Source of the DNA: Tangfeifania diversioriginum
Lineage (GTDB): Bacteria > Bacteroidota > Bacteroidia > Bacteroidales > Prolixibacteraceae
Assembly (NCBI GenBank): GCA_945873105.1
Contig: CAMCBW010000044.1
Coordinates: forward strand, 1 to 41,462
DNA length: 41,462 bases
Direction: 5' to 3'
Shown piece after piece: positions 5,300-34,587 of the stretch (positions within the stretch are counted from its first letter, which is position 1; every line of letters begins with the position of its first letter). The notes below the pieces were generated by a model. That model saw nothing but the letters and a program-made list of their open reading frames with translations, searched no databases and was not told the origin of the DNA. Position numbers and translations under genes: made by a program.

Positions 5300-5320
5300 C
5301 AACCTAATCCGACGAATGGC

Positions 5321-7194: not shown

Positions 7195-7230
7195 GCAGTT
7201 ATAAGCTTGATAAACAAATTTTTAGTTGGA

Positions 7231-7320
7231 TTATCCGATATTTTTACCTGTGCAGGGGGTAAATTATCCGATATTTTACCCTATGCAGGGGGTAAAATAT
7301 CGGATAATTTACCCCCTGCA
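7231..7320. repeat. 31-bp perfect inverted repeat plus a direct copy
   Basis: Bases 7251-7281 and 7290-7320 are perfect reverse complements of 31 bp, separated by an 8-base loop. The key words are TGCAGGGGGTAAA and TTATCCGATATTTTACCC. A further direct copy of the TTATCCGATATTTT(T)ACC...GGGGGTAAA unit starts at 7231. The structure lies 50 bases before the ATPase gene and 56 bases after the GH43 gene. It could form a very stable RNA hairpin or cruciform and so act as terminator, attenuator or a target of the neighbouring ATPase. Confidence 0.9.
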
Positions 7321-7369
7321 TGATTTTTCTAGTAAAATATATCTATATTTGCTGTAAATTTTAGCGGAT

Positions 7370-8593: not shown

Positions 8594-8812
8594 TCCCATT
8601 TTGCCAAGCCCAACGTTTCGTGAGTTTGTTAAAAAAACATTATTATTGGAGAAATAATCGTCTGTCGCATTGGTTTTAATCCTAATTTACGCATTGAAAT
8701 TTAGCTTCTCAAAAGATATTTTTTTCACCGGTTTGCCGGGGAAAAAGATGGTGGATTTTTGATTGTTAATTTGTTTGGACCAGGCTGATACTGAAACTAG
8801 AACCCGTACAAT

Positions 8813-11263: not shown

Positions 11264-11306
11264 TTCTCAAATATTGTCAGATCAGAAAACACCCAAACAA
11301 AAATAA

Positions 11307-14435
<3,129 letters not shown>

Positions 14436-15721: not shown

Positions 15722-16051
15722 CTATCCGTTGATGGCAGACTCTTTGTCAGGATAGATTGAAAAAATCGAAGAAAACCCGGATATGTCAAAAATCTCCTGG
15801 ATTTCAGCACGCAGGCAGCACAATTCAAATTTCCCTTTGGTGGCCAGCATTTTTTTCTGAATGATCAGGAATACCCTTAGACCTGAACTGCTGATGTAAT
15901 TTAACCCTGAACAGTTCAGAATAATTCGGGCGCTACCGCTTTCAACTACCCCCATCATGGATTTCTCAAATTCGTTGGCATTGGTTGTGTCAACACGGCC
16001 TTCCACGCTTACCATGGTGTATCCTGTTGCTGTGGTGATTTCTACGTTCAT
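15722..16051 (-). CDS. STAS-domain anti-sigma-factor antagonist
   Basis: The 109-residue protein is a single STAS domain of SpoIIAA/RsbV length. VSVEGRVDTTNANEFEK is the first conserved block, and LNCSGLNYISSSGLRVF holds the phospho-acceptor: Ser55 aligns with Ser58 of SpoIIAA. In partner switching, the unphosphorylated form binds the HATPase kinase and frees that kinase's target; the kinase rephosphorylates it and the SpoIIE phosphatase resets it. Its start overlaps the kinase stop by 4 bases, so the two are translationally coupled. It is the last gene of the ten-gene unit. Confidence 0.9.
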   Translation of the reverse strand: MNVEITTATGYTMVSVEGRVDTTNANEFEKSMMGVVESGSARIILNCSGLNYISSSGLRVFLIIQKKMLATKGKFELCCLRAEIQEIFDISGFSSIFSIYPDKESAING

Positions 16052-16485
16052 TGGTTGATGATTTTTTTTAAGGTTAAAATATTGCGGTTCTCATTTCTTT
16101 GGTATTCTATGGTATTCATGATTTTTTTCATGAGAAGGATTCCCAATCCGCCGATGGGACGCTCATCTGCGGATAAGGTAATATCGGCATCGGTTTTTAG
16201 CGTTGGATCGTAAGCGCATCCATCGTCTGTCAGGACGAATGTGACTGATTCGTCTGTTTTTTCAAAGCGGATGTCTATTTCATGTTGAATTTCGTCATTG
16301 TAACCATATTGTATGGTATTGGTCAATGCCTCTTCCAGCACCAGGTTCAATGAAAGGATCAGGGACATGGGCAATTCCAACTCTTCACCCAATTGTTCCA
16401 GCCATTCTGAAACACGGGTTAGTTCATCAATTTGATTGACAATACTAAATTCTTTGACGTAAGATAGATTATTCATTGTAGGCAA
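16048..16485 (-). CDS. RsbW/SpoIIAB-like anti-sigma serine kinase (HATPase_c_2)
   Basis: The 145-residue protein has the compact GHKL ATPase fold: N box LVLEEALTNTIQYGY with the catalytic glutamate and Mg-binding asparagine at about residues 50-60, DDGCAYDP as G1 box, and GGLGILLMKKIMN as G2/lid. It should phosphorylate the STAS serine and bind an output protein. The start overlaps the SpoIIE gene by 17 bases; a second ATG three codons inside is possible. No sigma factor is encoded nearby, so the output may be another protein, perhaps the STAS fusion at 23234. Confidence 0.9.
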   Translation of the reverse strand: MPTMNNLSYVKEFSIVNQIDELTRVSEWLEQLGEELELPMSLILSLNLVLEEALTNTIQYGYNDEIQHEIDIRFEKTDESVTFVLTDDGCAYDPTLKTDADITLSADERPIGGLGILLMKKIMNTIEYQRNENRNILTLKKIINQ

Positions 16486-18409
16486 TTGTCATCATGGTAA
16501 TGTCATCCGATTGAAAATATCCATTTACATGGAAAGCAACATCCTGTTCCATGCATTGAATCAATTCGCGGGGCGATGCCTCAAGGTTTGCCTGAATGAC
16601 TTTCAGGATATTCTCCTCTCCATAAAGTACGTTGCCAGCGTTTTCTGCCTCACTTACGCCGTCTGTGTAGAGGAAGAGTTTGTCTCCAGGTTCAAGCCTC
16701 AGTGAGGCTTCTCCATATTCAAAATCTTCAAACAGCCCTACCGGGATGAATTTAGTCTTTTCCAGCATGAATACCTCTCCATTGTTTCTGATCATGAAGG
16801 GGGGATTGTGACCAGCATTGCAATAGCTGAGTTCACCGGTTTTCAGATCCAGCACTCCCAGGAAAAAGGTCACAAACATGCTCGATTCGTTGTTGGAGGA
16901 GAGCGACTTGTTCAGACTGCTGACAATGGAGGATGGCATAAATTCCTTGTCGGAGATGGAACGAACCAGGGTACGGGTAACCGCCATGTACAAGGAGGCA
17001 GGTACCCCTTTCCCCGAGACATCTCCTATGGCAAAGCAAAATTTGTCCCCATCAATGACAAAAAAATCATAGAGGTCTCCACCCACCTCTTTGGCCGATT
17101 TTAGTACTGCAAATACATCTATTTGAGGAAGTTCAGGGAAAGGCGGAAAGATGTGCGGAATCATTGCCATCTGAATTTCACGGGCAATTCTCAGTTCACT
17201 TTCAATCTTCTCTTTCGCAACCGTGGTATCTTTGAGGGTGATGATGTATTCCGAAAGCTCCTTTTGCATGTAGGTGAAAGAGTCACAAAGTTCCTCCATC
17301 TCATCGTTGGTTTTGATGGTGGGAAGGGGAATGTTAAAATTGCCCGCTGCGATAATTCTGGCCGATCCTGCAAGCTGCTTGAGCGGTTTTGTTATATCAT
17401 TGATAATCCTCACAATAAAAACTGAGAGCAAGGTCAGTCCGATAACTACCAGCAACAGCAGTATCAGATTGATCTTTTGAAGGGAGGCCAGCATTTCATC
17501 TTCCGGATAGATGACCCCAATCGACCAGTGACTCGATGGTAAACTCTTGTAGTTGATCCAAAGTTTTCCAGAATGATATTTGCTTTTAAAATCCGCAGAA
17601 GTAAAATTGCTTTTACCCTGGATCATCTGCCGGCCAACTTCACGCATCCCTGGCTGTCCGTTTTCCTTGGCAATCGTGAAAATGCTGTGATTCATCACAT
17701 AATCCTTTTTTGGATGGGTGATGATCACTCCGTTTCGTGAAAGCAGGAAGGCATAGCCAGTGTCCAGGATTTTTACAGAGGACATAATTTCGGTGAGCCA
17801 TTCCAGGGAGAGATCGATGGTAACCACACCGGAGAAGACCCTCTTCCCCTCCCGGAAAGTGTAAAAGGGCACCGAGAAAGTGGTCATCAAAACATTGCCA
17901 CCTCCCTCGTCAAAATAGGGTTCTGACCAATAGGGGGCATTGGTCATCTTTGGGATCTGGTACCAATCCATAAATTCGTACTCATAGTTTTCGTTTCCCA
18001 ACATGGTAGCAGAAATAGTATTTCCCTGACGGAACAGGTAGGGGGCAAAATACTGTTTGTCGGCGAAGTAGTTGGGCTCATAGGCAATCACAGATCCAAA
18101 AATATTGGTGTTGGCAGCCAGTACTGACCTTAGAAACGGGATCAACGAATCTCTTGTCAGGAAGGCTGATTCCAGCATCCTGGCGATGATTTCAGGTATT
18201 TTTTCTGCAGGACTCAATATCTGTTCAATCCGGTTTGCCGTGTTATCGGCCAGAAAGACAGCATTCTCCTGGGTTGTTTGCTGGATGGTGCTCCGGGTAA
18301 AATAGTAGTAGATGGAAAATGTCACCAAAAAAAGCCCGGTGCAGAAAAGCAATACATTCCGTATGATGCGGGATGCAAGTGTTTTCCTTTTTAATATGCC
18401 TTTTTTCAC
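16469..18409 (-). CDS. Membrane dCache-HAMP-SpoIIE phosphatase
   Basis: The 646-residue protein has a membrane helix at about 15-38, a periplasmic double-Cache sensor at about 40-310 (MDWYQIPK, PYWSEPYFDEGGG, VVTIDLSLEWL), a second membrane helix at about 313-337, a HAMP region to about 390, a short coiled coil, then a PP2C/SpoIIE phosphatase at about 425-645. Metal-binding motifs are intact: EVGGDLYDFF, GDVSGKGVPA, LYTDGVSEA and SDDITMM. It should dephosphorylate STAS proteins in response to a periplasmic ligand. The arginine of the amino-acid-binding dCache motif is not seen before MDWY, so the ligand is probably something else. It overlaps the kinase gene. Confidence 0.93.
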   Translation of the reverse strand: MKKGILKRKTLASRIIRNVLLFCTGLFLVTFSIYYYFTRSTIQQTTQENAVFLADNTANRIEQILSPAEKIPEIIARMLESAFLTRDSLIPFLRSVLAANTNIFGSVIAYEPNYFADKQYFAPYLFRQGNTISATMLGNENYEYEFMDWYQIPKMTNAPYWSEPYFDEGGGNVLMTTFSVPFYTFREGKRVFSGVVTIDLSLEWLTEIMSSVKILDTGYAFLLSRNGVIITHPKKDYVMNHSIFTIAKENGQPGMREVGRQMIQGKSNFTSADFKSKYHSGKLWINYKSLPSSHWSIGVIYPEDEMLASLQKINLILLLLVVIGLTLLSVFIVRIINDITKPLKQLAGSARIIAAGNFNIPLPTIKTNDEMEELCDSFTYMQKELSEYIITLKDTTVAKEKIESELRIAREIQMAMIPHIFPPFPELPQIDVFAVLKSAKEVGGDLYDFFVIDGDKFCFAIGDVSGKGVPASLYMAVTRTLVRSISDKEFMPSSIVSSLNKSLSSNNESSMFVTFFLGVLDLKTGELSYCNAGHNPPFMIRNNGEVFMLEKTKFIPVGLFEDFEYGEASLRLEPGDKLFLYTDGVSEAENAGNVLYGEENILKVIQANLEASPRELIQCMEQDVAFHVNGYFQSDDITMMTIAYNE

Positions 18410-18449
18410 GCTGAATATTTTTGTTAGATTAATCTATTTTAGAGAGGGT

Positions 18450-19430
18450 TTATTTCAAAGGGGAATAGTAGAATTCTCCGAAGGAAAACCTGGGTTTGGT
18501 GCCATTCAGTTTTGCAGAGACAGCTACTGCCTTGTCAAAGTCAGTTTCTTGCAATACCCCGTATTCTCCCCCTTTGTTCCCGGGATGGATCAATTCCAGT
18601 ACTTTGTCCAGCATCCACTCCTGGTGTACTTTGTTGGCAGGCAGATGGGCCAATTGCATTTGTTTGGTTACCAAATCTATCGCATATTTTTTGTCATTGG
18701 CAGCATATTCCCATCCCTTCAGGGTAGCCTTTAAAAAACTGTTGATTTCGGCTTTTTTGCTTGCAAAGGTCTTTGTAAGACAATAAAGTCCATCTTCCGG
18801 GATATCAAATCCGTAATCAGCTACCGGAAAGACATTTAGTTCATCCTCATTGATGCCGCAATTGATGATCTGATCATATTCGTTGTAAGACATAACCGTC
18901 ATTGCATCGATGCCCCCCATGGTGAAAAGGTTTACCGTTGATAGCACCGGAATCCACTCCACCTCAATTTTCTTCTCCGCCATCAGTGCTTTGGGTACTT
19001 CATCAAATCCGCTCTTCCAGATTCCAATTTTTTTCCCCTGCAATTGACCGAGCGATGAGATACCGCTGCTTTTTTTTGTAATAAAGAGAATGGCAGAGTG
19101 TTGCGAGATTTGTCCTACGTTGATCAATTCCAAACCCTTCTCTTTGTGGGCCATGGCAGTAATCAGAAACAGGGAGATCAGATCGGCCTTTCCACTGGCC
19201 AGCAAGGAGGTGGCTTGTAAATTTGCGGAGGGATGAATTAGCTCCACGTCCAGTCCTGCCTCCCGGTAGAAACCCTTTTCCAGGGCAATGTAATAGCCCG
19301 CAAATTGTGCCTGGGGGAGCCATTGCGGTGAAAAGACCAGTTTGCGAAGCTGACCCTCTGCCAGCAGGGTACCAAATAGCAGGAGCAGGGCCAGTACAAG
19401 CTTGTGAAGGTTGAATTTCAAATTATTCAT
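18450..19430 (-). CDS. NMT1/THI5-like periplasmic binding protein
   Basis: The 326-residue protein has a cleavable signal peptide (LVLALLLLFGTLLAEGQ) and then the NMT1/SsuA-type opening QWLPQAQFAGYYIALEKGFY and AGLDVELI, with SLGQLQGKKIGIW in the middle. This family binds pyrimidine thiamine precursors, sulfonates, nitrate or related small molecules for ABC importers. No matching permease of its own family lies here; the permease at 22281 is of the TrpY/BPD_transp_2 type, which pairs with the other binding proteins. Its gene ends 40 bases before the phosphatase gene, so it may present a ligand to the dCache sensor rather than to a transporter. Confidence 0.85.
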   Translation of the reverse strand: MNNLKFNLHKLVLALLLLFGTLLAEGQLRKLVFSPQWLPQAQFAGYYIALEKGFYREAGLDVELIHPSANLQATSLLASGKADLISLFLITAMAHKEKGLELINVGQISQHSAILFITKKSSGISSLGQLQGKKIGIWKSGFDEVPKALMAEKKIEVEWIPVLSTVNLFTMGGIDAMTVMSYNEYDQIINCGINEDELNVFPVADYGFDIPEDGLYCLTKTFASKKAEINSFLKATLKGWEYAANDKKYAIDLVTKQMQLAHLPANKVHQEWMLDKVLELIHPGNKGGEYGVLQETDFDKAVAVSAKLNGTKPRFSFGEFYYSPLK

Positions 19431-19547
19431 CGGGGATGTATGTTTTTAAAACAATATTTTTTTCAAAAATAATAAGGTACTCCTAAAAAAGGGAATGGAT
19501 GGATAAAGGTTGACTAAAAAATCCTGTCATTGTTTTCAGGTTAAAAA

Positions 19548-20324
19548 TCAAAAGGATATGGCAGCAACAAGCCAGCTGTTTTTTAGGGCCGGATTGGTAA
19601 TCAGACTAATACTTAAGGGTATGGCAAACCGGTCAGTAATGGCAATTGATTTTTTAAGCGTACACCCGATGTTGACAAACCCCGCGTTTTCCGCGTAATA
19701 GTCTCCCTTTGCCTGATATCCTGCGAAGGCCAACAATTCAACATCTTTCAACTGATGCTCGAATTGAAGTTCAAGATAGATACTTTTTGATTCATCTGCG
19801 CCATAAAAGAAGCAGCTTGTGAGAAAATTAAAGGGTAATGCCTCTCCGCCGGAAAGGAGCAGCTGTGCTTCCAACAAATGAGCCGTGGTATGCTTCCGGT
19901 AATCAAAAAAATTTGCCTGGATGGTATCGTTGAAACTCCAGTAGTCCCAAACAGAAAGATTCACAAATCCAAAGCTTTTGGAAAGATAGAAATCGGTTTC
20001 AGCTTCGCCAACGCCACTTAGTTTGTAGGCTCCCCAGGCACCCAGGGTAAAATCTTTCCAGGAAGCCGACAGTGCAGGCTGTACACTGGGGGAATGTCCA
20101 ATGTCTGTCCCACGCCAGATGTAGCGGCTGACCAGATCAACATTTGCTTCAATGGAGACATCCTGGGTCGATTCTGCTTGTCCCGAAGCGAATCCGGAGA
20201 AGAGCAATAGTCCCAAAAGGAGACTCAGCTGAACCAGGGGGAATAATTTGAATCTGCTTCCTGATTCTACAGGTTGCTTGAATGTAAATAATTGTATTGA
20301 TGTAATATATGGATTTATTCTCAT
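19548..20324 (-). CDS. TorF-like small outer-membrane beta-barrel protein
   Basis: The 258-residue protein has a long n-region, a hydrophobic core (LSLLLGLLLFSGFASGQ, about 33-50) and then alternating beta strands, beginning IEANVDLVSRYIWRGTDIGHSPSVQPA and ending with a terminal phenylalanine, as outer-membrane barrels do. The RYIWRG opening is typical of the TorF/gcw_chp family of putative porins. No other methionine offers a shorter start. It could let the ligand of the binding proteins across the outer membrane. It sits between two binding-protein genes, 117 bases from one and 23 from the other. Confidence 0.75.
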   Translation of the reverse strand: MRINPYITSIQLFTFKQPVESGSRFKLFPLVQLSLLLGLLLFSGFASGQAESTQDVSIEANVDLVSRYIWRGTDIGHSPSVQPALSASWKDFTLGAWGAYKLSGVGEAETDFYLSKSFGFVNLSVWDYWSFNDTIQANFFDYRKHTTAHLLEAQLLLSGGEALPFNFLTSCFFYGADESKSIYLELQFEHQLKDVELLAFAGYQAKGDYYAENAGFVNIGCTLKKSIAITDRFAIPLSISLITNPALKNSWLVAAISF

Positions 20325-20347
20325 CTGTATAGTTGTTTAAAAGATGT

Positions 20348-21364
20348 TCAGTGGATGACAGAATCGGTTCTTGCCAAAAGCTCCTCAGAAAGGTTCCAGG
20401 TTCCTTTAACCACTTTTCTCACGCCGTCATTGACGTAAAGTTTTTCAGGAACAACGTTGGTTATTTCAATCTTGTTGGTGGGATAGCCATTCAGTAACGC
20501 ATTCACCATTTTTCCGGTGGATTGCCCCACCTCATAGTAATTGGCCCCAAGATTGGCCAGTGCCCCTCTAAAGGCATGCTTTGGATTGTTGGTGAAAACG
20601 GGAATTTTGTTTTTGTTGGCAGCGCCAATGTACATTTCAATGGCAGACTCCACCACATTGTCACCACCGATCCAAAGGGCTTCTACTCCTTTGGCGCTTA
20701 CCGCCAAAGCCGCTTCGTATACCTGGGAGACAGTTTCCACGCTAACTTCCACCAATTCGATGCCAAGTTCCTTGCAGATCTTTCGTGCCTTTCCAACGCA
20801 GGCTTCAGAGCAGGTTTCGCTCGTGCACCAGACTACTCCCATCTTTTTGAGATCGGGGTTCATCTGGCGGGCGATTCTAAAAACACTCTCAACCGGCTGA
20901 AAGGTTCCGATTCCAACCAGGTGCGGCGGATGTTGGTTGGCAGCCGATCCCGTAATGCCGACACCCGCAGCAACCGGATCTGTGACCGCACAAAAGACAT
21001 GCAGCAACTCCCCGTGTTTGTTCGCATTGGCCATGATCTGCAAGCCGGGCGTGCTGATGGATACCACCATATTAAATTTTTCACTGATGATATTTCTGGC
21101 GATCATGTTGGCTGTTGGCATGTCTCCTTCCGGACAATAACGCTCTATTTTAACCAATCCTTTCCGGAAGGCTTCTGAGGTCTTGATCTCTGCCAGCAAT
21201 CCATTTTCAGTATCTTCCAAAATCTGGTTGGAATTGAATCTGAATATGGCAATCCTTGTTTTCTCGACATTGCGATAGCCCTCTTTGCGGTTTTGCAAAT
21301 CTGAGAGCAGTAAGATGGCACTCACTGCCAACAAAAAAAAGAGGGGTCTGAAAAGGCTATTCAT
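20348..21364 (-). CDS. TrpX-type ABC substrate-binding protein, membrane-anchored
   Basis: The 338-residue protein belongs to the ABC_sub_bind (PF04392, TrpX-like) family: FNMVVSISTPGLQIM, VTDPVAAGVG, ESVFRIARQMNPDLKKMGVVW and VEALWIGGDNVV. The N-terminus is an uncleaved-looking membrane segment, FFLLAVSAILLLSDLQNR, with no lipobox, so the protein is probably tethered to the inner membrane. The words LL(V)SDLQNR recur at the start of the tandem binding protein at 24476. TrpX relatives bind tryptophan or similar small molecules in Gram-positives; the ligand here is unknown. It follows the ATPase gene by 102 bases. Confidence 0.88.
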   Translation of the reverse strand: MNSLFRPLFFLLAVSAILLLSDLQNRKEGYRNVEKTRIAIFRFNSNQILEDTENGLLAEIKTSEAFRKGLVKIERYCPEGDMPTANMIARNIISEKFNMVVSISTPGLQIMANANKHGELLHVFCAVTDPVAAGVGITGSAANQHPPHLVGIGTFQPVESVFRIARQMNPDLKKMGVVWCTSETCSEACVGKARKICKELGIELVEVSVETVSQVYEAALAVSAKGVEALWIGGDNVVESAIEMYIGAANKNKIPVFTNNPKHAFRGALANLGANYYEVGQSTGKMVNALLNGYPTNKIEITNVVPEKLYVNDGVRKVVKGTWNLSEELLARTDSVIH

Positions 21365-21466
21365 GGGATGTCATTAGTTTTTCAATGGCCATTTGAATGT
21401 TCAGGAGCAGCAGCTCAACCTGGTGATAAACATTTCAGGAGCTTGCGTTCCAATGGAGCAGGTCAT

Positions 21467-22279
21467 TTAAACATAGTTTTTCATCAACAGTTCAACAACG
21501 CCGGCGTCGATTTGATCCTTTCTCCGCAAGTCATCAAAGAGGGATAGAAGGTCGGCAATTTTCAATCTTCTTTTCTCTTCGCCCCGAAAATCATATTTGA
21601 TTTTCCCCTGGTGCATCATGATGATCCTGTCACCCAAATGAACTGCCTGTTGCATGGAATGGGTGACCATCAGGGTGGTCAACTTCCCTGCCGTGACAAT
21701 TTTCTCGGTCAGTTCAATTACTTTGCTGGCGGTCTTGGGATCCAGAGCCGCAGTATGCTCATCCAGCAACAGCAGTTCTGGTTTTACCCAACTCGACATC
21801 AGGAGGGTAAGGGCTTGCCTCTGACCTCCTGAGAGTTTTCCGATGGGGGAATCAAGCCGCTCTTCCAATCCCATGTTCAGGGTTTTGACCCTGGATTTCA
21901 GTTCTTGCAGCACAGTGGAAGTCAGACCCCATCCCAGTCCTCGTTTCTTGCCTCGCTTGGCAGCCAGGGCGAGATTTTCACCGATGGTCATGTTGGGAGC
22001 CGTACCGCTGAAGGGGTTTTGAAAGACCCGCCCGACATGACACGCTCTTTTGTATTCAGGCCAACGGGTGATGTCTTTGCCATTCAGTTCAATCGTGCCG
22101 GAATCCGTGTAAAAAGTTCCGGCTACGGCATTTAATAGCGTTGATTTTCCGGACCCGTTGGTACCAAGTACACAGATAAAGCTGCCCTCCTCGATGGTGA
22201 GGCTCACCTCCTGTAATGCGTTTACTTCGTTGATCGTACCGGCATTAAAGGTCTTGTTCAGATTGGATAGTACGAGCAT
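21467..22279 (-). CDS. ABC transporter ATP-binding protein (TrpZ-like)
   Basis: The 270-residue protein has Walker A GTNGSGKST (about residue 39), Q-loop FQNP, signature LSGGQRQ and Walker B LLLLDEHTAALDP, then the switch histidine in VTHSM. The HTAALDP form and QNPFSGTAPNMTIGENLALA are typical of ATPases paired with TrpY-type permeases. Its gene starts 1 base after the permease stop, so the two are one translation unit. It energises uptake of the ligand of the TrpX-type binding proteins. Confidence 0.93.
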   Translation of the reverse strand: MLVLSNLNKTFNAGTINEVNALQEVSLTIEEGSFICVLGTNGSGKSTLLNAVAGTFYTDSGTIELNGKDITRWPEYKRACHVGRVFQNPFSGTAPNMTIGENLALAAKRGKKRGLGWGLTSTVLQELKSRVKTLNMGLEERLDSPIGKLSGGQRQALTLLMSSWVKPELLLLDEHTAALDPKTASKVIELTEKIVTAGKLTTLMVTHSMQQAVHLGDRIIMMHQGKIKYDFRGEEKRRLKIADLLSLFDDLRRKDQIDAGVVELLMKNYV

Positions 22280-22280
22280 A

Positions 22281-23216
22281 TTATTTGGTTCTGATAAGTT
22301 TGACTTTCTTCGTTTTCTTCATGAATCCGGGTAACACCAGTGCCAGAAATACAAAAGCAGCGGTGATCAATTTCAGATCGTTTGGATTCATTCCCCAGCG
22401 CAAGGCGATGGCCACCAAAAGCCTGAACAACACTGCTCCAATAACTGCACCGGCAATAACAAATCCAAGACTGTTGTCCCGGATCAGCGCCTCTCCGATA
22501 ATAACGCTGGCCAATCCCCACACCATCATGCCAATTCCCATTTGCACGTCAGCAAATCCCTGAAATTGGGCCAGCATCGATCCTGCCAGGGCAATAAACC
22601 CATTGGAGAGTGCAACCCCAAAGATGATCATCACCTTGGTGTTTACGCCCAATGCCCGAATCATCTGGTCGTTGTCGCCGGTAGCCCTCATGGCTGTTCC
22701 GATATTTGTACGGAAGTACCAGAGCAGCAATAATCCAAAAAAGACGATGATCAGCAGACAGAAAAACAGCGTCCAGAGATCTTTGGCAGGAACACTCCAG
22801 CCAATCAGATTCACAAGGGTATCCTTGCCGGAAACCGTTTCTGAAAATGATTCAAACCAGGTGAAAAGTGTACGCTGGGAGAGCAGTGGAACATTGCTTT
22901 TGCCCATGACATGCAGGTTTACCGAATAGAGCGCCGTCATTACCAGAATTCCCGAGAGCAAAGGATTTATTTTAAACCTTGTATGGATGAGTCCCGTTGC
23001 GGCTCCTGCAGCAAATCCGCCAACAAAGGCAACTGCAGTCGCAGTAATTGGATTTGCACCGGATACGATCAACGCTGCAGAAAGTGCTGCCCCAAAGGTA
23101 AAAGATCCCTCTGCCGTTATATCCGGAAAATCAAAGATCCTGAAGCTAATGAAGATGCCAAGCGCCAGCAGTGCCAGGATAAGACCAATGGTGATGGATC
23201 CAACTAATAGTGTCAT
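22281..23216 (-). CDS. ABC transporter permease (TrpY-like, BPD_transp_2)
   Basis: The 311-residue protein is very hydrophobic, with about eight or nine membrane segments, and matches the TrpY/branched-chain-type permease family. Markers are FDFPDITAEGSFTFGAALSA near the N-terminus, TRFKINPLLSGILVMTALYSVNL, NTKVMIIFGVALSNGFIALAG, and GLASVIIGEAL. It starts 17 bases downstream of the STAS fusion gene and abuts the ATPase gene. It is the only permease in the unit, so all three TrpX-type domains likely feed it. Confidence 0.92.
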   Translation of the reverse strand: MTLLVGSITIGLILALLALGIFISFRIFDFPDITAEGSFTFGAALSAALIVSGANPITATAVAFVGGFAAGAATGLIHTRFKINPLLSGILVMTALYSVNLHVMGKSNVPLLSQRTLFTWFESFSETVSGKDTLVNLIGWSVPAKDLWTLFFCLLIIVFFGLLLLWYFRTNIGTAMRATGDNDQMIRALGVNTKVMIIFGVALSNGFIALAGSMLAQFQGFADVQMGIGMMVWGLASVIIGEALIRDNSLGFVIAGAVIGAVLFRLLVAIALRWGMNPNDLKLITAAFVFLALVLPGFMKKTKKVKLIRTK

Positions 23217-23233
23217 ATCTATTCTTTTTATAA

Positions 23234-24454
23234 TTAACTAAGTTTCCCAATCCAGGCAACCCCCTGTTTAAAACTGCTATCTCCCAATCCGACGATTTCA
23301 CGGGAATCGTTGACCAAATGCATCACATCCTGGACAATGCTGCTGTCAAAAATGTGCAGGATCAGTTCTTCTGCCGAGTTTGCCTTTTTGGGTAGCGATT
23401 GAAAGGGAAAGATGGCGGTATGAATGTGTACATAGAAATCGGATCCCGGTTTATCCGGCCTTAAATAGGACTTCAACCTTTCATCCGGATTAAGATAGCA
23501 AAAACCGAGCGAGAGCGTCAGCATTTTGGCGTAGGCTGGTTCGGTGGTGAAATTGATATGGTCGCGGATACCCGGAAATTCAAAGAGCAACTTTCCATCC
23601 ACTGGTGGTGCTGTGAGACTTACTCCTATCAATCCTTCACTTTCGGCAATTGCAAAAAAAACAAATCGCTGAAATCCGGTAGTTTTTGCAAAACCTGCTA
23701 TGATATCTTTCATCGAAATCGAAGTCGAAACTCCCGTAGGATCGAAGGTAATTCTGTTGGAGAAGGAACCCTCTGCCTGCAGGGAGCACAATGCATTGAT
23801 TTCGGGATTCAGATTCCCTGATTTAAGGGCATAATCGGGTATTTTTGATCCATCGGTCGGTTTGTAGACCAGCGCGTTTCCCAGGGAGAGGTACTCACCA
23901 TATCTGTCTTTACAATCGGCAAAGCCATCCCCTATCGCACCAATCCCCAGTCCATACCTGTTGACTGCACCCTTGATTTTGTGATTATCTGCCGGAAGGT
24001 ATCCCGAAGTAAGGCTGAGATCCGGGTTTCCAATGAACAGAGTTGTCATGGATTCCTCTGAAAGAACTTCATTTTCAAATCGGTAGGTCGCTACTTCTGT
24101 GAATTGCGCTACCACATTCCCGGTATCTATGGGTTCGGCCTCCCTTTCAGTTAGCATGGTGCTCATGCCCACCATGTCGAGAACCTCTGCAACAGCAGCC
24201 GACAGGTCTGCCAGACAAAAAAGACCCCCTATTTTCTTTATTTTTTTGTATTGATTTACCAATATCCGGATGCCTGCAGAGCTTAGGTACTGAACTCCAT
24301 GCATGTTCAATACAATGCGGTGGGATCCCTCCCTGACCAGGTCATTCAGGTAGTCGTCCAGGTGTCCGGCCCAGTTGGCATCCAGTCTGCCCTCCAGAAA
24401 CAGATGCTGTTCGTGACCTGAAATCTCTTTCCGGATGTCCAATTTGTTTTCCAT
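23234..24454 (-). CDS. STAS domain fused to an unrecognised C-terminal region
   Basis: Residues 1-110 are a STAS domain: LFLEGRLDANWAGHLDDYL and LNMHGVQYLSSAGIRILVN, with Ser59 at the phospho-acceptor position. Residues about 115-406 match no family I know. This part contains short motifs GLGIGAIGDGFAD, SLGNALVYKPTDG and YVHIHTAIFPFQSLPKK, no membrane helix and no signal peptide, so it is cytosolic. The gene lies between the first binding-protein gene and the permease. As a second STAS protein of the unit it could be the output or a second substrate of the kinase/phosphatase pair, possibly acting on the transporter. That is inference. Confidence 0.85.
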   Translation of the reverse strand: MENKLDIRKEISGHEQHLFLEGRLDANWAGHLDDYLNDLVREGSHRIVLNMHGVQYLSSAGIRILVNQYKKIKKIGGLFCLADLSAAVAEVLDMVGMSTMLTEREAEPIDTGNVVAQFTEVATYRFENEVLSEESMTTLFIGNPDLSLTSGYLPADNHKIKGAVNRYGLGIGAIGDGFADCKDRYGEYLSLGNALVYKPTDGSKIPDYALKSGNLNPEINALCSLQAEGSFSNRITFDPTGVSTSISMKDIIAGFAKTTGFQRFVFFAIAESEGLIGVSLTAPPVDGKLLFEFPGIRDHINFTTEPAYAKMLTLSLGFCYLNPDERLKSYLRPDKPGSDFYVHIHTAIFPFQSLPKKANSAEELILHIFDSSIVQDVMHLVNDSREIVGLGDSSFKQGVAWIGKLS

Positions 24455-24475
24455 TCGGTGTGGTTTTTTGTATGG

Positions 24476-26413
24476 CTATTTGTCTGTTTGTTGTATGGGG
24501 AAATTTGCGTGGATCGATTCAGGAACAACGATCCCATAAAGTTTCGCATTTTTGTTGCTAATCAAAAAGTCGGTCTTTTGGACATATTTGTATGGAATGG
24601 TTGAGGGGTCAATCCCCGAAAGAACTTTCATGGCCATCTCTCCTGATTCATAACCTGCCTGTTCGTAATCCCTTGCACAAACCGCAACGGCCCCCTGAGC
24701 TATCAGGTTCGTGGCAAAACCATACAGGGGTATTTTGCTGTTGATGGAAACTTTCAAGACTGCCGAGCTGCAACTTCCTACCAGATTGTCTGAAATTTGG
24801 CAAAAAGCCTCGATCCTTTGTGAAACAAGGGAGTTGGCTGCATCCAGCACATCCGTGGCGGAACTTGCCGGAACAGCAATCAATTGCAATCCCTCTTTTT
24901 TTGCAGCCTCCTCAAGATGATCCTTGTAGGAGACTGAATTGATTTCAGCAGGTGTGAAGACAGTCCCAATTTTTTTGATTCCAGGATGCAGGTGCTTTAC
25001 CATTTTAACCATACCCTCAAAATCGCTCATGGTGGAGATGCCGCAAACATTGGGGAGATGATCCTCAAACGATTTCCCCAAGCCGGCAATTTGGGGATCG
25101 CCCACATTGGTAAAGACAATCTTGTATCCGGGTAATTTTTTCACCAGCATTTGGGTGGTAGGGGTGGAGAGTGCAAAAACCAAATCCCATTTTTCGCTGC
25201 CAATAGAGCCTGAAATGCTGTTTAAGGTGGCCATATCCCCCTGTGCATTCAATACTTTGAGGGTAAAGTCAGGGCCTTCCGTAAGTTTGTTGTCCGCAAA
25301 GCATTTGCGGATCCCTTTTTCACAATCTTCCGAATTTGGACTGTCAATGTAGTGAACGAGTGCAATTTTGTATTGCTTGTCGGTAGGAACAATTGCCGTG
25401 GAGGCAAGATATTTCACAGGGATGGTAATTCCAAGCTCTTTTGCCCTGTTTAGATCTACTTTAATCTCTTCATTTCCGAAATTTTCCAGTGGAATGGTAT
25501 CGGGAGAAGCCCCATTCAGCATTCGCGCAACCAGATTCCCCGTATGGTAGCCTATGCCGGTCCAACCTGGGCCAATGGCTGCCAGGGCTCCTTTTTCAAC
25601 CAGGGGTGCATCATTCACAACCACTGGAATTGCATTCTTGCGGCAAAGTCCTGAGATGGCATCAAATGCCTGGGTGGCAGTATTGTCCCCCGAAATGTAC
25701 ATCACGTCAATTCCTTTGCTGATGATTACCTGCGCCGCCTGGTATACCTCTGAGGTATTGACCACGGGCAGTGCAACCAGTTCAAATTTCAAATTATTGG
25801 CAACTTTGTTTAAGAGGTTCAGGACGCTGCGTGAATTTGCCTCTGCATTGTTGTAGATTGTTCCAATTTTGGTCGTTCCGGGAATAGCTTCCAGGATAAA
25901 CTGAACAGTTTTCTCGACAGGAGGAAATGAGCCGATTCCGGTAATTCCCCTGGCATGGTCATTGTAACTCTTTCCAACCCCTGCTGCAATTGGATCAGAA
26001 CAGTAGGTGAAGGCAACCGGATGTTTTTTGACCGTTGAAAGGGCGGCTGTTATACAGGGGGTAGAGGTCGCCAGTATCAGATCCAAATCGAGGTTGTCCA
26101 TGTTTAGCAAAATTGGCGAAATGTTCCCGATCTCCCCATTGGAGTGGGCTTCCTTGACGATCAGATTCTTACCCAATACGAAATTCAATTCTGCCATTCG
26201 CTTCCATAATCCGGTCAATAGTTGGTCATGTGATGCATCGGGCGCAAAATAACAGAGGCCCAAGGTGTATTGTTTTCCAGCCATGGCTCGGTTGGACAAT
26301 TGGCCGGGATTGGAGGGCATGACCTTAACTTTGTTGCGGTTTTGAAGATCGGAAACAAGCAAGATTACCGATACAATGATTAAGGCCATTATCCCTTTGA
26401 GTATAGGTCTCAT
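24476..26413 (-). CDS. Tandem TrpX-type substrate-binding protein (two domains)
   Basis: The 645-residue protein is about twice the family length and contains two ABC_sub_bind domains, at about 48-340 and 350-640. Landmarks recur: LILATSTPCITAAL with FTYCSDPIAAGVGKSYNDH in the first, FALSTPTTQMLVK with FTNVGDPQIAGLGKSFEDH in the second. The N-terminus is a membrane anchor, IVSVILLVSDLQNR, lacking a lipobox. The two domains have diverged, so they may bind different ligands or work as a tethered pair. It is the first gene of the unit, after a 495-base intergenic region. Confidence 0.9.
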   Translation of the reverse strand: MRPILKGIMALIIVSVILLVSDLQNRNKVKVMPSNPGQLSNRAMAGKQYTLGLCYFAPDASHDQLLTGLWKRMAELNFVLGKNLIVKEAHSNGEIGNISPILLNMDNLDLDLILATSTPCITAALSTVKKHPVAFTYCSDPIAAGVGKSYNDHARGITGIGSFPPVEKTVQFILEAIPGTTKIGTIYNNAEANSRSVLNLLNKVANNLKFELVALPVVNTSEVYQAAQVIISKGIDVMYISGDNTATQAFDAISGLCRKNAIPVVVNDAPLVEKGALAAIGPGWTGIGYHTGNLVARMLNGASPDTIPLENFGNEEIKVDLNRAKELGITIPVKYLASTAIVPTDKQYKIALVHYIDSPNSEDCEKGIRKCFADNKLTEGPDFTLKVLNAQGDMATLNSISGSIGSEKWDLVFALSTPTTQMLVKKLPGYKIVFTNVGDPQIAGLGKSFEDHLPNVCGISTMSDFEGMVKMVKHLHPGIKKIGTVFTPAEINSVSYKDHLEEAAKKEGLQLIAVPASSATDVLDAANSLVSQRIEAFCQISDNLVGSCSSAVLKVSINSKIPLYGFATNLIAQGAVAVCARDYEQAGYESGEMAMKVLSGIDPSTIPYKYVQKTDFLISNKNAKLYGIVVPESIHANFPIQQTDK

Positions 26414-26908: not shown

Positions 26909-28291
26909 CTATTTTTTCAGCCAGATCCCTTCCATCTCTTCCAATGTTTTTCCCTTGGTTTCAGGAACCATCTTCCAGACAAAAACAAATGAAAGCAGGC
27001 TCATAGCGCCATAGAACCAATAGGTTACACCACCGCTAAACTCCATCATGGCCGGATAGGTTGAGGAGATGAAATAGTTGGCGGCCCATTGGGAGGCCAC
27101 CGCAATGGCAATGGCCCTTCCGCGGATCTTGTTGGGGAAAATCTCCGAGATCAATACCCAGCAAATAGGCCCCCAGGACATCATAAACGATGCAGTGTAG
27201 ATGATGATGAAGATCAGGGTACTGATTCCTATTACTTTCATAAAGGCCAGTGCACCAATGGCAAACATTCCCAGCGCCATTCCGATTGACCCAATCATCA
27301 GCAGGATTTTACGTCCATATTTGTCTACTGTCACAATGGCAATCACCGTAAAAATCACGTTGATCAACCCCATCACAACCGTCTGGAGCATGGATGCATC
27401 CTTGGCTGCCCCCATGCTCTCAAAAATGCGGGGTGCATAGTACAAGGCCACGTTGATTCCAACAAATTGTTGAAATACCGAGAGCAATATCCCAATGATG
27501 ATCACCGCTTTCCCATAGGCGAACAGCTTCTCGGAAGAGGCCTCTACCGATAACTTGATCTCTTTCAGGATGGATTTGGCTTTCTCTATTCCATTGATTT
27601 TCGTTAAAATAGTGAGTGCCTGTTCATCCTTGTTGTTCAGTGCCAGGTACCTGGGTGTTTCGGGTACAAAAAAGAGCAGGATGCCGAAAATTCCCGCAGG
27701 AATGGCTTCAGAGATAAACATCCAACGCCAACCGGTGGTGTTGATCCATTCAATGGTCTGACCATGGGCAATTCCATAGTTGACAAAATAGACCACCAAC
27801 ATCCCAAAGATAATGGCAAACTGGTTGAATGACACCAATCTTCCCCTGATTTCAGCCGGAGCGATCTCTCCAATGTACATCGGACAGACAGCAGAGGCAA
27901 TACCTACTCCGATCCCACCAATTACCCGGTAGAAATTGAACATGAACAAAAGTCCCATCGTGGGTTCCCCTTTGGTAAAAAAGAAAGCTTCTGGCCATCC
28001 TGAGCCAAGGGCTGATATGAAGAAAAGTACGGCAGAAAGCATCAGGGAATTTTTGCGTCCAAGTTTGGAAGCGGCTACTCCTGAGACCATTCCTCCAATG
28101 ATACAGCCGATCAGGGCACTGGAAATCGTGGCACCATGTGCCAGCGTTCCCAGTCCCAAACTGTTGATCAGGTACATTTGTATGGATTTCTCTGCCCCCG
28201 ATATGACGGCCGTGTCGTATCCGAACAGAAGTCCACCCAAGGTAGCTACCAACGTGATTGCCACTACATACAATGAATTGTACTGCTTCAT
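26909..28291 (-). CDS. xylE: MFS sugar:proton symporter (XylE-like)
   Basis: The 460-residue protein has twelve membrane segments and the sugar-porter signatures: GGLLFGYDTAVISG in helix 1, SKLGRKN in the first cytoplasmic loop, PMYIGEIAPAEIRGRLVSFNQ in helix 4-5, PETPRYL, QQFVGINVALYYAP in helix 7, VDKYGRK, and the terminal VPETKGKTLEEME. It would import D-xylose with protons. Its start is 4 bases after the xylose isomerase stop, so it is the last gene of the pentose operon. Arabinose transport is a possible alternative. Confidence 0.93.
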   Translation of the reverse strand: MKQYNSLYVVAITLVATLGGLLFGYDTAVISGAEKSIQMYLINSLGLGTLAHGATISSALIGCIIGGMVSGVAASKLGRKNSLMLSAVLFFISALGSGWPEAFFFTKGEPTMGLLFMFNFYRVIGGIGVGIASAVCPMYIGEIAPAEIRGRLVSFNQFAIIFGMLVVYFVNYGIAHGQTIEWINTTGWRWMFISEAIPAGIFGILLFFVPETPRYLALNNKDEQALTILTKINGIEKAKSILKEIKLSVEASSEKLFAYGKAVIIIGILLSVFQQFVGINVALYYAPRIFESMGAAKDASMLQTVVMGLINVIFTVIAIVTVDKYGRKILLMIGSIGMALGMFAIGALAFMKVIGISTLIFIIIYTASFMMSWGPICWVLISEIFPNKIRGRAIAIAVASQWAANYFISSTYPAMMEFSGGVTYWFYGAMSLLSFVFVWKMVPETKGKTLEEMEGIWLKK

Positions 28292-28295
28292 AAAA

Positions 28296-29621
28296 TTAAA
28301 TGTAACCGTTGATCAGTTGTTCGAGCATCTCCTGTTTGCCACTGATCTGTTTTGGTTCACCAACCTCTTTGGCAATGTTGTACAGATCCGTCAAGTTTAG
28401 CTTACCTGCTTCATATTCTGCACCTTTGCCTGAATCGTAGGAGGCATAGCGATTTGCTTTCAGTTTCAGGTAGTCTGAATCTTTCAGCAGTTTATCCGCG
28501 ATCACCAATGAACGGGCAAAAACATCCATTCCGCCGATGTGGGCCAGGAAGATGTCCTCCAGATCGGTGGAGTTGCGACGGGTTTTGGCATCAAAGTTGA
28601 TACCCCCGGTGGTGAAACCCCCAGCCTGGATGATCTCAATCATTGCCTCTGTAATCTCGTAAATATTGGTTGGGAATTCGTCGGTATCCCATCCGTTCTG
28701 GTAGTCTCCCTTGTTGGCATCAATGGAGCCGAACATGCCATTGTCGCGGGCAAACCGGAGCTCATGCGCGAAGGTGTGTCCTGCCAGGGTGGCATGGTTG
28801 ACCTCTATGTTCATCTTGAAATCGTTTTCAAGTCCGTGAGCCCTCAGGAAGCCGATCACGGTCTGGGTATCGAAATCATACTGGTGTTTCATTGGTTCCA
28901 TTGGTTTGGGTTCAATGAGGAAAGTTCCTTTGAAACCAAGATTCCGGGCATGGTCGCGTGCAGTGGCAAGAAATTTGCCCATGTGTTCCAGTTCACGCTT
29001 GGTATCGGTATTGTGCAGGCTCATGTATCCTTCGCGTCCTCCCCAGAAAACATAGTTGGTTCCTCCAAGGGCGATGGTAGCTTCCATCGCATTCTTGACC
29101 TGAACTGCCGCATTTGCCAAAACATTGAAATCAGGATTGGTGGAAGCACCGTTCATGTAACGTGCATTGGAGAATACATTGGCAGTTCCCCAAAGCAATT
29201 TTGCACCGGTGGCATCCTGACGCTCTTTGGCGAAATCGATCATGTTGGCCAGCCTCTGCTCAATTTCGAAAACAGTACCATCGCCCACCACATCTGTATC
29301 GTGGAAACAGTAAAATGGAGCACCTATTTTGCTGATAAATTCAAAGGCTGCATCCATGCGCTCTTTTGCTGCAGTCATCTTGTCGGAAGCGCCAACCCAG
29401 GGGAAAATCTGGGTTCCCGGACCGAACGGGTCGCCCCCATCTCCGCAGAAAGTATGCCAGTAGGCTACTGCAAAACGAAGATACTCTTTCATGGTTTTAC
29501 CAAGAATCTGCTGGTTGGCATCATAATATTTGAATGCCATCGGATTTTTGGACTTTGGTCCTTCGTACTGAATTTGATCAATACCAGGGAAATACTCTTT
29601 GTTTCCTTTAAAAGCTGTCAT
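28296..29621 (-). CDS. xylA: Xylose isomerase
   Basis: The 441-residue protein has full length for the group II enzymes of Bacteroidota. [13 protein letters not shown] carries the catalytic histidine, [16 protein letters not shown] and [18 protein letters not shown] carry metal ligands, and [20 protein letters not shown] plus [13 protein letters not shown] complete the two metal sites. It interconverts D-xylose and D-xylulose in the cytoplasm. It sits between the GH3 gene and the symporter gene. Confidence 0.97.
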
Positions 29622-29638
29622 GATGTTTAAAATTTAAA

Positions 29639-31831
29639 TTATTTGATCGTAAATGTTCCTTTTAAAAATTCTGGTGCCCCCAATTCAAGACTTCGTTGGC
29701 CAGGAGAGGATCCGCCAATGGTTAGCAGGATTTCGCCCTTTTCTACCACACTTTTACCACTTTCATCCACCGAACTCATCAACTCTGGAGTGACCACAAA
29801 GGTGATCTCCTGACTTGCACCCGGAGCAAGATGTATCTTCTTGATTCCTTTCAGGGATTGGTTCGGCACCCTAAAAGATGATTGCAAGTCTTTGATATAC
29901 AGTTGGGCTACTTCTTCTCCCTCAATTTTGCCTGTGTTGGTGATTTTGCAGGATGCAGTAACCGTTTCTCCGTTTTTAATCTTAAGCGCCGAAATTTTCA
30001 GGTCACTGTATGCGAATTTGGCGTAGGATAGGCCAAAGCCAAATGGGAAAAGGGGTTCCGTTTCCATGTAGCGGTAGGTGCGTCCAGCCATGTTGTAATT
30101 TTCAAAGGCAGGAAGGTCATTGATGGATTTTGGGAAGGTAATTGGCAGTCTGCCACTGGGATTGGCATCCCCGAAGAGTACATCCGCAACTGCATTGCCT
30201 CCCTGCTCACCAGGGTACCAGACAAACAGGATGGCATCGGCCAAAGCTTCCATTTCAGGAGAGGTAATGGCACTACCACCGGTAAGTACCACGACAACTT
30301 TCTTTTTGCCCGCAGCTTTTTTAAGCTTCCTAAGGTAATTCAGCTGACTTTGGGGCAATCGGGTATCCAGACGGTCACCTTTGTCGGAAGAGGCAATCGA
30401 TTCACCCTCTTCGCCTTCATCCAAACCGGAAATCCCCAATACTGCAATCGTTACCTCAGCATCTTTGGCCATGCCTGTAGACCAGTCCATTGGGTTTTTG
30501 TTCTCACGGTCAGGCAGGATTCCGTAGCGGTAGCCGATTTTGGAACCAGGGGCAATTTTGCCCGCAATTCCTTCCAAGATGGTTGACATATCATCGGAAA
30601 TACCATAATAATTGCCAATCAAAACATCAATATTCCCAGCCATGGGACCAGTTACAAAAATGGATGGACAATCTTTTGCAATGGGCAAAACGCCATTGTT
30701 TTTCAGCAATACCATCGATTTTTGGGCAACTTTTCTTGCCAAATTCTTGTGCTGCTGACTGTGCACAACTTCTGATCCGATCTTGTTGTATGGATTGGCA
30801 TCGACTGGATCGAACATGCCCAGTTTAAACCGGGTTTTCAGTAGTCCATGCAATACCTTGTCTACCTCTTTCTCTGTGATTAGCCCCTGTTTCACCGCTG
30901 ATGGAATCGCCTTGTAGGTGTCGCCACAGTTGAGGTTTACCTGGTTCTGGATGGCCAGGGCCACTGTTTGCTCGGGGGTAGCAGTGAAATGGTGATCACC
31001 GTGGATGTTTGCCAGGGCTCCGCAATCGGATACCACATGGCCCTTGAAACCCCAGTCGTTTCGCAGAATCCTGGTAAGTAGACGGTTGCTTCCGCAACAT
31101 GGTTCATTGTCAGTACGGTTGTAGGCACACATTACCGACTCTACATTGGCATCCACCAGGGCTTTGAAAGCTGGAAGATAAGTTTCGTACAAATCTTTGT
31201 CGGAAACCACCGCATTGAATTCGTGCCGGAGCCCTTCGGGTCCGGAATGGACGGCATAGTGCTTGGCACAGGCAGCCGTTTTCAGGTAGGTAGGGTGGTT
31301 TCCCTGCATCCCTTTGACAAAGGCAGTACCAACCGTACTGGTCAGAAAAGGATCTTCTCCATAGGTCTCATGGCCGCGACCCCACCTGGGATCCCTGAAG
31401 ATGTTGACGTTGGGCGACCAAAAGGTGAGTCCCTGGCAGATGGTATGAAATCCCCGCTTTACTGCATCATTGTACATTGCCCGGCCTTCGTCGGAAATAG
31501 CAGTCGATACTTCCAGAATTAAGTCAGGGTCGAAGGTGGCTGCCATGCCAATGGCCTGGGGAAATATGGTAGCCTTTCCTGCCCTCGCCACTCCGTGCAG
31601 CGCTTCACTCCACCAGCCATATTTCGGGATATTCAGTTGTGGTAGATCCCTGGCTGCATCCACCATCTGACTGGCTTTCTCTTCCAGGGTCATCCGGCCT
31701 ATCAGGTCATCTATCCGCTGGTCCAACGGAATAGTTGGATTCAGGTAGGGCAGCATGGGTTGCTGGGCCTTGAGTTCGGTAACTATAGAAAACAGCAGCC
31801 CAACAAAGAGGTATGATATTCTAAATCGCAT
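29639..31831 (-). CDS. GH3 beta-xylosidase
   Basis: The 730-residue protein has a signal peptide (MRFRISYLFVGLLFSIVTELKAQ) and the three GH3 domains: TIM barrel to about 350, alpha/beta sandwich to about 590, and a fibronectin-III-like tail. YGWWSEALHGVAR and NIFRDPRWGRGHETYGEDP are typical of the beta-xylosidase branch, and the nucleophile is Asp269 in HVVSDCGA. It would release xylose from xylo-oligosaccharides in the periplasm or outside. Its start is directly next to the xylulokinase stop, so it is embedded in the xylose operon, which supports the xylose rather than glucose reading. Confidence 0.9.
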   Translation of the reverse strand: MRFRISYLFVGLLFSIVTELKAQQPMLPYLNPTIPLDQRIDDLIGRMTLEEKASQMVDAARDLPQLNIPKYGWWSEALHGVARAGKATIFPQAIGMAATFDPDLILEVSTAISDEGRAMYNDAVKRGFHTICQGLTFWSPNVNIFRDPRWGRGHETYGEDPFLTSTVGTAFVKGMQGNHPTYLKTAACAKHYAVHSGPEGLRHEFNAVVSDKDLYETYLPAFKALVDANVESVMCAYNRTDNEPCCGSNRLLTRILRNDWGFKGHVVSDCGALANIHGDHHFTATPEQTVALAIQNQVNLNCGDTYKAIPSAVKQGLITEKEVDKVLHGLLKTRFKLGMFDPVDANPYNKIGSEVVHSQQHKNLARKVAQKSMVLLKNNGVLPIAKDCPSIFVTGPMAGNIDVLIGNYYGISDDMSTILEGIAGKIAPGSKIGYRYGILPDRENKNPMDWSTGMAKDAEVTIAVLGISGLDEGEEGESIASSDKGDRLDTRLPQSQLNYLRKLKKAAGKKKVVVVLTGGSAITSPEMEALADAILFVWYPGEQGGNAVADVLFGDANPSGRLPITFPKSINDLPAFENYNMAGRTYRYMETEPLFPFGFGLSYAKFAYSDLKISALKIKNGETVTASCKITNTGKIEGEEVAQLYIKDLQSSFRVPNQSLKGIKKIHLAPGASQEITFVVTPELMSSVDESGKSVVEKGEILLTIGGSSPGQRSLELGAPEFLKGTFTIK

Positions 31832-33316: not shown

Positions 33317-33366
33317 ATTAGGATCCTATTTGGTTATAAAATGTCTGTTCTGCTGTATGATGATTT

Positions 33367-34362: not shown

Positions 34363-34381
34363 GGTATAGAAAGTGGGTTAT

Positions 34382-34418
34382 CTGTTCTGATCCGTTCTGC
34401 AAATATAGGATAGAACAG
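34382..34418 (-). promoter_or_regulatory. Promoter and likely operator of the pentose operon
   Basis: Read on the minus strand, TATATTTG (34400-34407) is a perfect -7 match, 38 bases before the regulator start. It is bracketed by CTGTTCT (34382-34388) and its inverse AGAACAG (34412-34418), with another GTTCTG at 34394-34399. These arms are good candidates for the GntR regulator's own operator. Confidence 0.5.
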
Positions 34419-34587
34419 CCAAATAATGGTGGATGAAAATATGTTTTACAGCATCTCATCAGACAGGATTCTGCCATCATTGGATCTTTGCCTGTATGTT
34501 TTATAACAGTATAATAAAAGTATTCTTTACTATTAATGTACCTGAAAACATGTTATTTTTACTTTGTAGTTATTAAACCTGAATACC

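Follow-up and report, generated by a model that had tools for sequence, protein, structure and literature searches.

A candidate partner-switch-controlled ABC importer with a two-domain STAS protein in Bacteroidota

Partner switches of the RsbU-RsbW-RsbV and SpoIIE-SpoIIAB-SpoIIAA type combine a phosphatase and a HATPase_c_2 kinase with a STAS substrate, and RsbW-like proteins classically bind sigma factors. TrpXYZ importers (NF041285, PF04392) are composed of a binding protein, a permease and an ATPase. The SiaABCD system of Pseudomonas aeruginosa (PMC7647112) comprises a PP2C-like phosphatase, a kinase and a target phosphorylated on Thr68, and is tied to carbon availability. A STAS protein bound to an ATP-binding cassette (ABC) ATPase is known from MlaB-MlaF, with the acceptor-type residue Thr52 at the interface; according to PMC7367683, a phosphomimetic change weakens binding, an alanine change is hard to square with simple phosphoregulation, phosphoregulation of MlaB is an open question to the authors, and no second STAS-ABC example was found in the PDB at the time. 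This article concerns ten genes in a 41,462-nucleotide stretch of Tangfeifania diversioriginum DNA (GenBank assembly GCA_945873105.1, contig CAMCBW010000044.1; hereafter the window, which spans one entire contig of the 99 in the 5.36-Mb genome), in which an ABC importer, a partner-switch gene set and a two-domain STAS protein, here named STASx, are encoded in series. We tentatively propose, at slightly less than an even chance, that the importer is under partner-switch control, with STASx as a cytoplasmic MlaB-like subunit or regulator whose phosphorylation would be set by partner switching.

Like MlaFEDB, the system has a STAS protein encoded inside an ABC operon: in all 26 loci compared here, STASx lies beside importer genes, directly upstream of the permease gene in 25 and next to the binding protein gene at a contig end in the other (G553). 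It differs from MlaFEDB in having a BPD_transp_2 permease and PF04392 proteins instead of the Mla-type permease and the MCE substrate protein, and, whereas MlaB is a minimal stand-alone STAS protein, STASx is fused to a decarboxylase-like domain and has kinase and phosphatase genes alongside. As in the Rsb and Spo switches, a phosphatase, a HATPase_c_2 kinase and a STAS substrate are present, with conserved kinase and acceptor residues; unlike in those switches, no sigma factor was found among the scanned window proteins, and an ABC importer includes a second candidate STAS substrate. The likeness to SiaABCD lies in the partner switch (the window phosphatase matches the SiaA model over residues 313-642, with 65.7 bits, far under the cut-off of 700), but the proposed target here is an ABC importer, whereas SiaABCD acts with a di-guanylate cyclase on biofilm formation (PMC7647112). 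With TrpXYZ importers the locus shares the binding protein family, the permease type and the ATPase; it departs from them in its extra STASx gene, in the fusion, seen in two distant relatives, of binding domains to the permease (three PF04392 domains in L083:6033-9776, two in L085:5794-8631) and in its NCBIfam TrpX scores of 311.8 bits (double binding protein) and 151.5 bits (single), which lie under the cut-off of 390, so that "TrpX" denotes a resemblance only. Among the open-access papers listed, as judged by titles and abstract openings, none was found to describe partner-switch control of an ABC importer, direct action of a partner switch on a membrane transporter, or a STAS domain fused to a second domain of this kind.

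A reading of the window made from the letters alone (the sequence-only reading) had described ten same-strand, mostly tightly spaced or overlapping genes at 15722-26413. All ten are present on the minus strand, in series from 26413 down to 15722, with the named families above their Pfam cut-offs. The gaps along the direction of transcription are 21, 17, 1, 102, 23, 117, 40, -17 and -4 nucleotides (nt), with two looser joints ahead of the single PF04392 protein (102 nt) and of NMT1 (117 nt). The genes form two cassettes, A (importer and STASx) and B (switch), and are listed in transcription order.

24476..26413 (-): double binding protein, cassette A; two PF04392 (ABC_sub_bind) stretches (Pfam 7e-92), hydrophobic N-terminus
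23234..24454 (-): STASx, 406 amino acids (aa), cassette A; N-terminal STAS domain (about residues 1-105; Pfam 8.9e-15) and an acetolactate-decarboxylase-like domain
23234..24103 (-): second domain of STASx; predicted acetolactate-decarboxylase fold, invariant H343, H345, H379, E305 and E187
22281..23216 (-): ABC permease BPD_transp_2, cassette A (Pfam 3.8e-31)
21467..22279 (-): ABC ATPase, 270 aa, cassette A; ABC_tran (Pfam 2e-28)
20348..21364 (-): single-domain PF04392 binding protein, cassette A (Pfam 1.4e-37)
19548..20324 (-): outer-membrane barrel, Gcw_chp/TorF-like, accessory (Pfam 3.2e-7)
19464..19471 (-): possible Bacteroidota -7 box TATTTTTG, inside the 117-nt gap ahead of NMT1
18450..19430 (-): NMT1/THI5-like binding protein, cassette B (Pfam 7.8e-41)
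16469..18409 (-): dCache-HAMP-SpoIIE (PP2C-type) phosphatase, cassette B; SpoIIE 9.3e-52, HAMP 1.7e-10, dCache_1 7.4e-17
16048..16485 (-): RsbW/SpoIIAB-like serine kinase, cassette B; HATPase_c_2 1.1e-24; overlaps the phosphatase gene
15722..16051 (-): small STAS protein of anti-sigma-antagonist type, cassette B; STAS 4.8e-21; 4-nt overlap with the kinase gene

The TrpXYZ-like importer with three TrpX-type domains was thus recovered as three PF04392 domains in two proteins, a permease and an ATPase, the sub-cut-off TrpX scores notwithstanding. Of the two STAS proteins claimed, both were found, the second being the two-domain STASx. The outer-membrane barrel gene exists but was rejected as a core part, since cassette frames were labelled as a barrel in just 2/26 loci.

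STASx loci were collected with a profile of the second domain, which was found in 17/140 genomes of the family and in 4/395 genomes of a phylum-wide sample (the window genome being counted in both); G465 and G476 were added from a search of relatives, giving 22 STASx genomes. A scan of named metagenome-assembled genomes with short peptide patterns, which reaches close relatives only, yielded nine more loci, all titled as Bacteroidota or groups within it, one of them as Prolixibacteraceae. After removal of four repeats (L063, L065, L066 and L067, equal in length and gene content to contigs of G443, G560, G453 and G552) and one fragment (L071, 104 aa at a contig end), 26 distinct loci remained. 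In a search for plasmids with STASx, 4 records were returned, matching the STAS part only. A kinase match (E <= 1e-5) was present in 22/22 STASx genomes searched, and no genome with STASx but lacking such a match was seen; four loci known from the pattern scan alone lay outside this genome-wide search. Within the family, a kinase match at E <= 1e-8 was found in 41/140 genomes, namely 17/17 with STASx and 24/123 without (Fisher p 4.9e-11), and NMT1 (E <= 1e-20) in 11/17 with and 7/123 without (p 4.3e-8), values that are inflated by kinship among the genomes. Three of the seven genomes with NMT1 and without STASx (G500, G525 and G550) contain weak matches within long frames of another kind. On strong genomic evidence, this is an accessory system of Bacteroidota that is uncommon yet recurs.

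Key residues of the ATPase, the kinase and the small STAS protein are conserved. Walker A (with one S/T exchange) and LSGGQ are kept in 25/25 ATPases found across the 26 loci, the N-box E and N in 22/22 kinases, and the acceptor Ser of the small STAS protein in 21/21. Kinase, phosphatase and STAS genes are encoded together at the locus, which is the composition of a partner-switch module; the window kinase was aligned to RsbW (6m36), the small STAS protein scored 77.6 bits against TIGR00377 (above cut-off) and the phosphatase 176 bits against PF07228. The phosphatase alignment across loci is mixed, with 14/20 best matches carrying SpoIIE motifs and 6 apparently being dCache histidine kinases. 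In the window genome, HATPase_c_2 exceeds its cut-off at four places (locus kinase 87 bits, next 38).

The acceptor Ser of STASx (Ser59), within the motif SSAG, is invariant in 26/26 loci and aligns with the acceptor residue of SpoIIAA, numbered Ser58 in PMC8256260. In the full-length AlphaFold2 model (built on 21 relatives; predicted local distance difference test value, pLDDT, 88.8), the N-terminal part of STASx matched RsbV/SpoIIAA in Foldseek, with Mla STAS chains further down, and the remainder matched acetolactate decarboxylase. When the second domain of about 290 aa was modelled alone (pLDDT 90.8), matches 1-13 in the PDB were acetolactate decarboxylases or a similar protein (E 2.5e-7 to 1.0e-4), the top match having template modelling (TM) scores of 0.53 (query) and 0.64 (target). 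Match 14 was PTD012 (E 1.4e-4), with poor superposition (root-mean-square deviation 10.1); PTD012/C11orf54 is a decarboxylase structurally related to acetolactate decarboxylases and holds zinc by three His residues (PMC12435205). STASx shares with acetolactate decarboxylase and PTD012 the predicted fold and an H-x-H...H set, which is invariant in 26/26 loci including the window (H343, H345, H379), as are E305 and the pair G186-E187. No credible Pfam match to the second domain was obtained in 21 members (three weak families, one member each, best E 0.043), PF03306 (acetolactate decarboxylase) was absent from these 21 members and from the window genome searches, and the C-terminal profile, searched against PDB sequences, gave no match. 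Because sequence profiles fail to connect STASx with acetolactate decarboxylase, the claim made for the second domain covers its predicted fold and a probable site for a metal, but no activity. FIST-type and PP2C-type domains, which had been guessed beforehand, were rejected after the fold search gave acetolactate decarboxylase, and the idea that STASx is simply another anti-sigma antagonist was rejected because it carries the 290-aa domain.

As judged by alignment and gene neighbourhood, STASx is likely a substrate of the kinase, since its acceptor Ser is invariant and aligned as described, since two of the three STAS proteins above the Pfam cut-off in the window genome sit at this locus, since STASx follows the small STAS gene within one run in G562, and since the kinase gene directly precedes those of the binding protein, STASx and the permease in L070. 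The run in L070 reads NMT1, SpoIIE, RsbW, binding protein, STASx, permease, and no small STAS protein is labelled in the 21-kb stretch, which leaves STASx as the only local substrate candidate seen. Three opposite-strand genes, one of them a sulfatase gene, separate the permease from the ATPase in this locus (L070:12188-16075). The third STAS gene of the window genome (L175:7393-7731) is located between genes for an S1-domain protein and a metallo-beta-lactamase-fold protein.

The same features bear on a reversed direction of signalling, in which STASx would report importer activity or an imported metabolite to the kinase (RsbR-type STAS proteins carry sensor domains), with the importer as sensor and the output elsewhere, in another STAS protein or a regulator. 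The separate, conserved second domain of STASx suits this direction, as do relatives in genus g185 with an extra STAS protein between the cassettes (97 aa in G556; a 746-aa STAS-TCAD9 protein in G560, L065) and the existence of cassette B without STASx, by which the output need not be the importer. Against it stand the single further STAS protein of the window genome, encoded among housekeeping-type genes, and the dedicated sensor domain already present on the phosphatase; on balance we consider it unlikely, at around one chance in four. Proteins with an N-terminal STAS domain followed by TCAD9 and APH-like parts (L065:14171-16411 and L176:17576-19837, by Pfam) may be further kinase substrates, and frames of 740-768 aa with a STAS match also occur in G397, G403, G404, G433 and G465.

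An assignment of NMT1 to the importer was considered and did not hold. The next gene downstream of NMT1 encodes a dCache protein in 23/24 labelled NMT1 loci (the exception being G564), also where the importer was not found, so that NMT1 was rejected as an importer part; it goes with the dCache sensor. In its N-terminal part the phosphatase matches sensor domains of known structure from histidine kinases and chemoreceptors, and NMT1 is proposed as a ligand presenter for this sensor. In a variant of cassette B, a histidine kinase carries the dCache part, and SpoIIE is found in a separate protein with a receiver domain (by Pfam for L068, by frame labels for the others). In L068:15325-19180, a dCache-HAMP-GAF histidine kinase and a REC-SpoIIE protein behind NMT1 replace the one-piece dCache-HAMP-SpoIIE protein; similar labels were seen in L080, L085 (with a separate receiver protein), L150, L153 and L156. 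SpoIIE was found twice in the window genome. The second copy (L174, contig C10, about 38-42.5 kb) adjoins a PAS protein gene, with Fe-hydrogenase-like, DRTGG, PHP and HATPase genes close by, and was rejected as a partner because it sits in a separate module on another contig.

From the genes, conserved residues, predicted fold, co-occurrence and linkage, we infer the interactions, phosphorylation, metal, direction of control and ligand of the following scheme. Ligand-loaded NMT1 would dock on the membrane phosphatase, at its dCache domain, and alter the activity of the SpoIIE (PP2C) domain. Two substrates, the small STAS protein and STASx (on its STAS domain), would be phosphorylated by the RsbW-like kinase and dephosphorylated by the phosphatase. 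STASx would bind the importer ATPase much as MlaB binds MlaF, with its acceptor Ser at the interface; unphosphorylated small STAS protein would tie up the kinase, so that STASx would stay unphosphorylated and bound to the importer. With its decarboxylase-like domain, STASx probably contributes a second input, this one cytoplasmic, through a metabolite at a putative metal site, or else an enzymatic step on the imported compound. The importer could then be gated by two inputs, namely phosphorylation of the STAS subunit on Ser by the partner switch (periplasmic ligand via NMT1 and dCache) and a metal-dependent sensing or enzymatic domain, an extension to which we give about one chance in three. 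The sequence-only reading had suggested one switch common to uptake and the sensing of periplasmic ligands, which fits this scheme. Its further suggestion of a chemosensory pathway found no support, as no chemotaxis gene was present among 30 scanned window proteins, the neighbours of relatives being scanned in part only.

In 17 of the 26 loci, cassette B genes share the contig with STASx at a distance of up to about 12 kb (window, G443, G453, G560, G556, G558, G425, G404, G406, G433, G562, G465, G476, G267, L064, L068 and L070); in 3 they clearly do not, and in 6 contig ends prevent a judgement. In six loci, cassette B genes are on other contigs (G403, G196, G216, G552, G397 and G566); in G552, G397 and G566 the contig ends are too near STASx to judge linkage, and in G553, G444 and L069 STASx is on contigs of 3.2 to 7.4 kb. 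A separate contig of G444 (L152) bears kinase, STAS and PF04392 protein genes together, and the L064 contig stops within the phosphatase gene. A kinase gene lies within 15 kb in 8/11 genera, for which a binomial calculation gave 6.9e-14 as an order of magnitude only, assuming p = 0.012 per genus and independence. The importer comes first in the window, G443, L064 and L068, and also, with other genes in between, in G453, G560, G556 and G558; the switch comes first in G433, G476, G406, G562, L070, G267, G425 and G404, and in G465 the cassettes are on opposite strands. Since gene order varies, proximity seems to be kept, not one inherited operon. The proposed functional coupling of transport to a switch without a sigma factor is supported by co-occurrence and recurrent linkage, whereas the single fused operon is not general. 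In genus g186, a YhcG-type nuclease (G433, L078:14080-15156) or a CstA-like piece (G444, L152:1674-2519) is encoded between the small STAS protein and the binding protein.

Within the window, all terminator-like sites on the operon strand are intragenic (8/8, with 0 in intergenic gaps). The possible -7 box TATTTTTG ahead of NMT1, called with the Bacteroidota consensus, makes an internal promoter possible, the site being weak on its own because 43 such 8-mers were observed in the window against 29 expected. Such a promoter, together with the 3 of 26 loci in which the cassettes are clearly apart, the 6 that cannot be judged and the lack of experimental evidence for MlaB phosphorylation (PMC7367683), would suit mere co-regulation, in which importer and switch respond to one nutrient and lie side by side for the sake of their expression, with no physical coupling, and STASx has a structural, MlaB-like role as a subunit and never undergoes phosphorylation. 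We consider this improbable, given the kinase match in every STASx genome searched, linked or unlinked, the invariant SSAG motif and the position of STASx in L070 as the only STAS protein seen beside the kinase.

Control of the importer by the partner switch, as preferred here, is weighed down by several observations. The counts of loci and genomes are not independent, because the genomes are related. In 24 of the 123 family genomes without STASx a kinase match is nevertheless present, cassette B occurs without STASx in G515 (on one contig) and G518, and G557 has a kinase, STAS and SpoIIE set without STASx; the switch can therefore have another output and is not bound to the importer. Related genomes in part separate the transporter from the signalling genes, an outcome that the sequence-only reading had itself named as adverse: the contigs of G403, G196 and G216 extend far enough to rule out any kinase match within 12 kb, and the sole kinase found for G196 is a distant one (34% identity). 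L068 has a dCache kinase, SpoIIE and STAS, with no RsbW labelled in the stretch read. In G443 (L072:11113-12862), the frames of the permease (233 aa) and the ATPase (in pieces) are broken as read, through assembly error or decay. As to the second domain, a profile comparison with two acetolactate decarboxylase sequences gave no relation (probability 1.2); the domain further differs from acetolactate decarboxylase in its STAS fusion and in a gap to the third His that is longer than in the two compared sequences, and the relation is one of modelled fold alone.

Cassette B without an importer would also suit an ordinary sigma-factor switch, in which the sigma factor is encoded elsewhere in the genome and the importer is a passenger. 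No sigma-factor family was detected in a Pfam scan of 30 of the 32 window frames (1-483 and 5080-5343 lay outside the scan), in agreement with the earlier statement that none is encoded nearby, the rest of the genome not being searched for sigma factors; passenger status would also leave unexplained why the cassettes stay near each other in differing orders, and we regard this possibility as very improbable. GGDEF domains were likewise not found among the ten operon proteins or the other scanned window proteins. The flanks (26909-36123 and 1838-14435) contain sugar-use genes, among them those for a sugar transporter of the major facilitator superfamily (MFS), a xylose-isomerase-like protein, an FGGY kinase, GH3, an arabinofuranosidase, GH43 and two GH2 proteins.

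If control of the importer through STASx is true, partner switching would act directly on a membrane transporter, not on a sigma factor or a second-messenger enzyme. For the question of STAS phosphoregulation left open for MlaFB, the loci offer a natural importer with a conserved STAS gene, an acceptor Ser and, often, a candidate kinase and phosphatase nearby. STASx would also add to STAS proteins a decarboxylase-fold domain that is undescribed in Pfam and may serve as a metabolite sensor.

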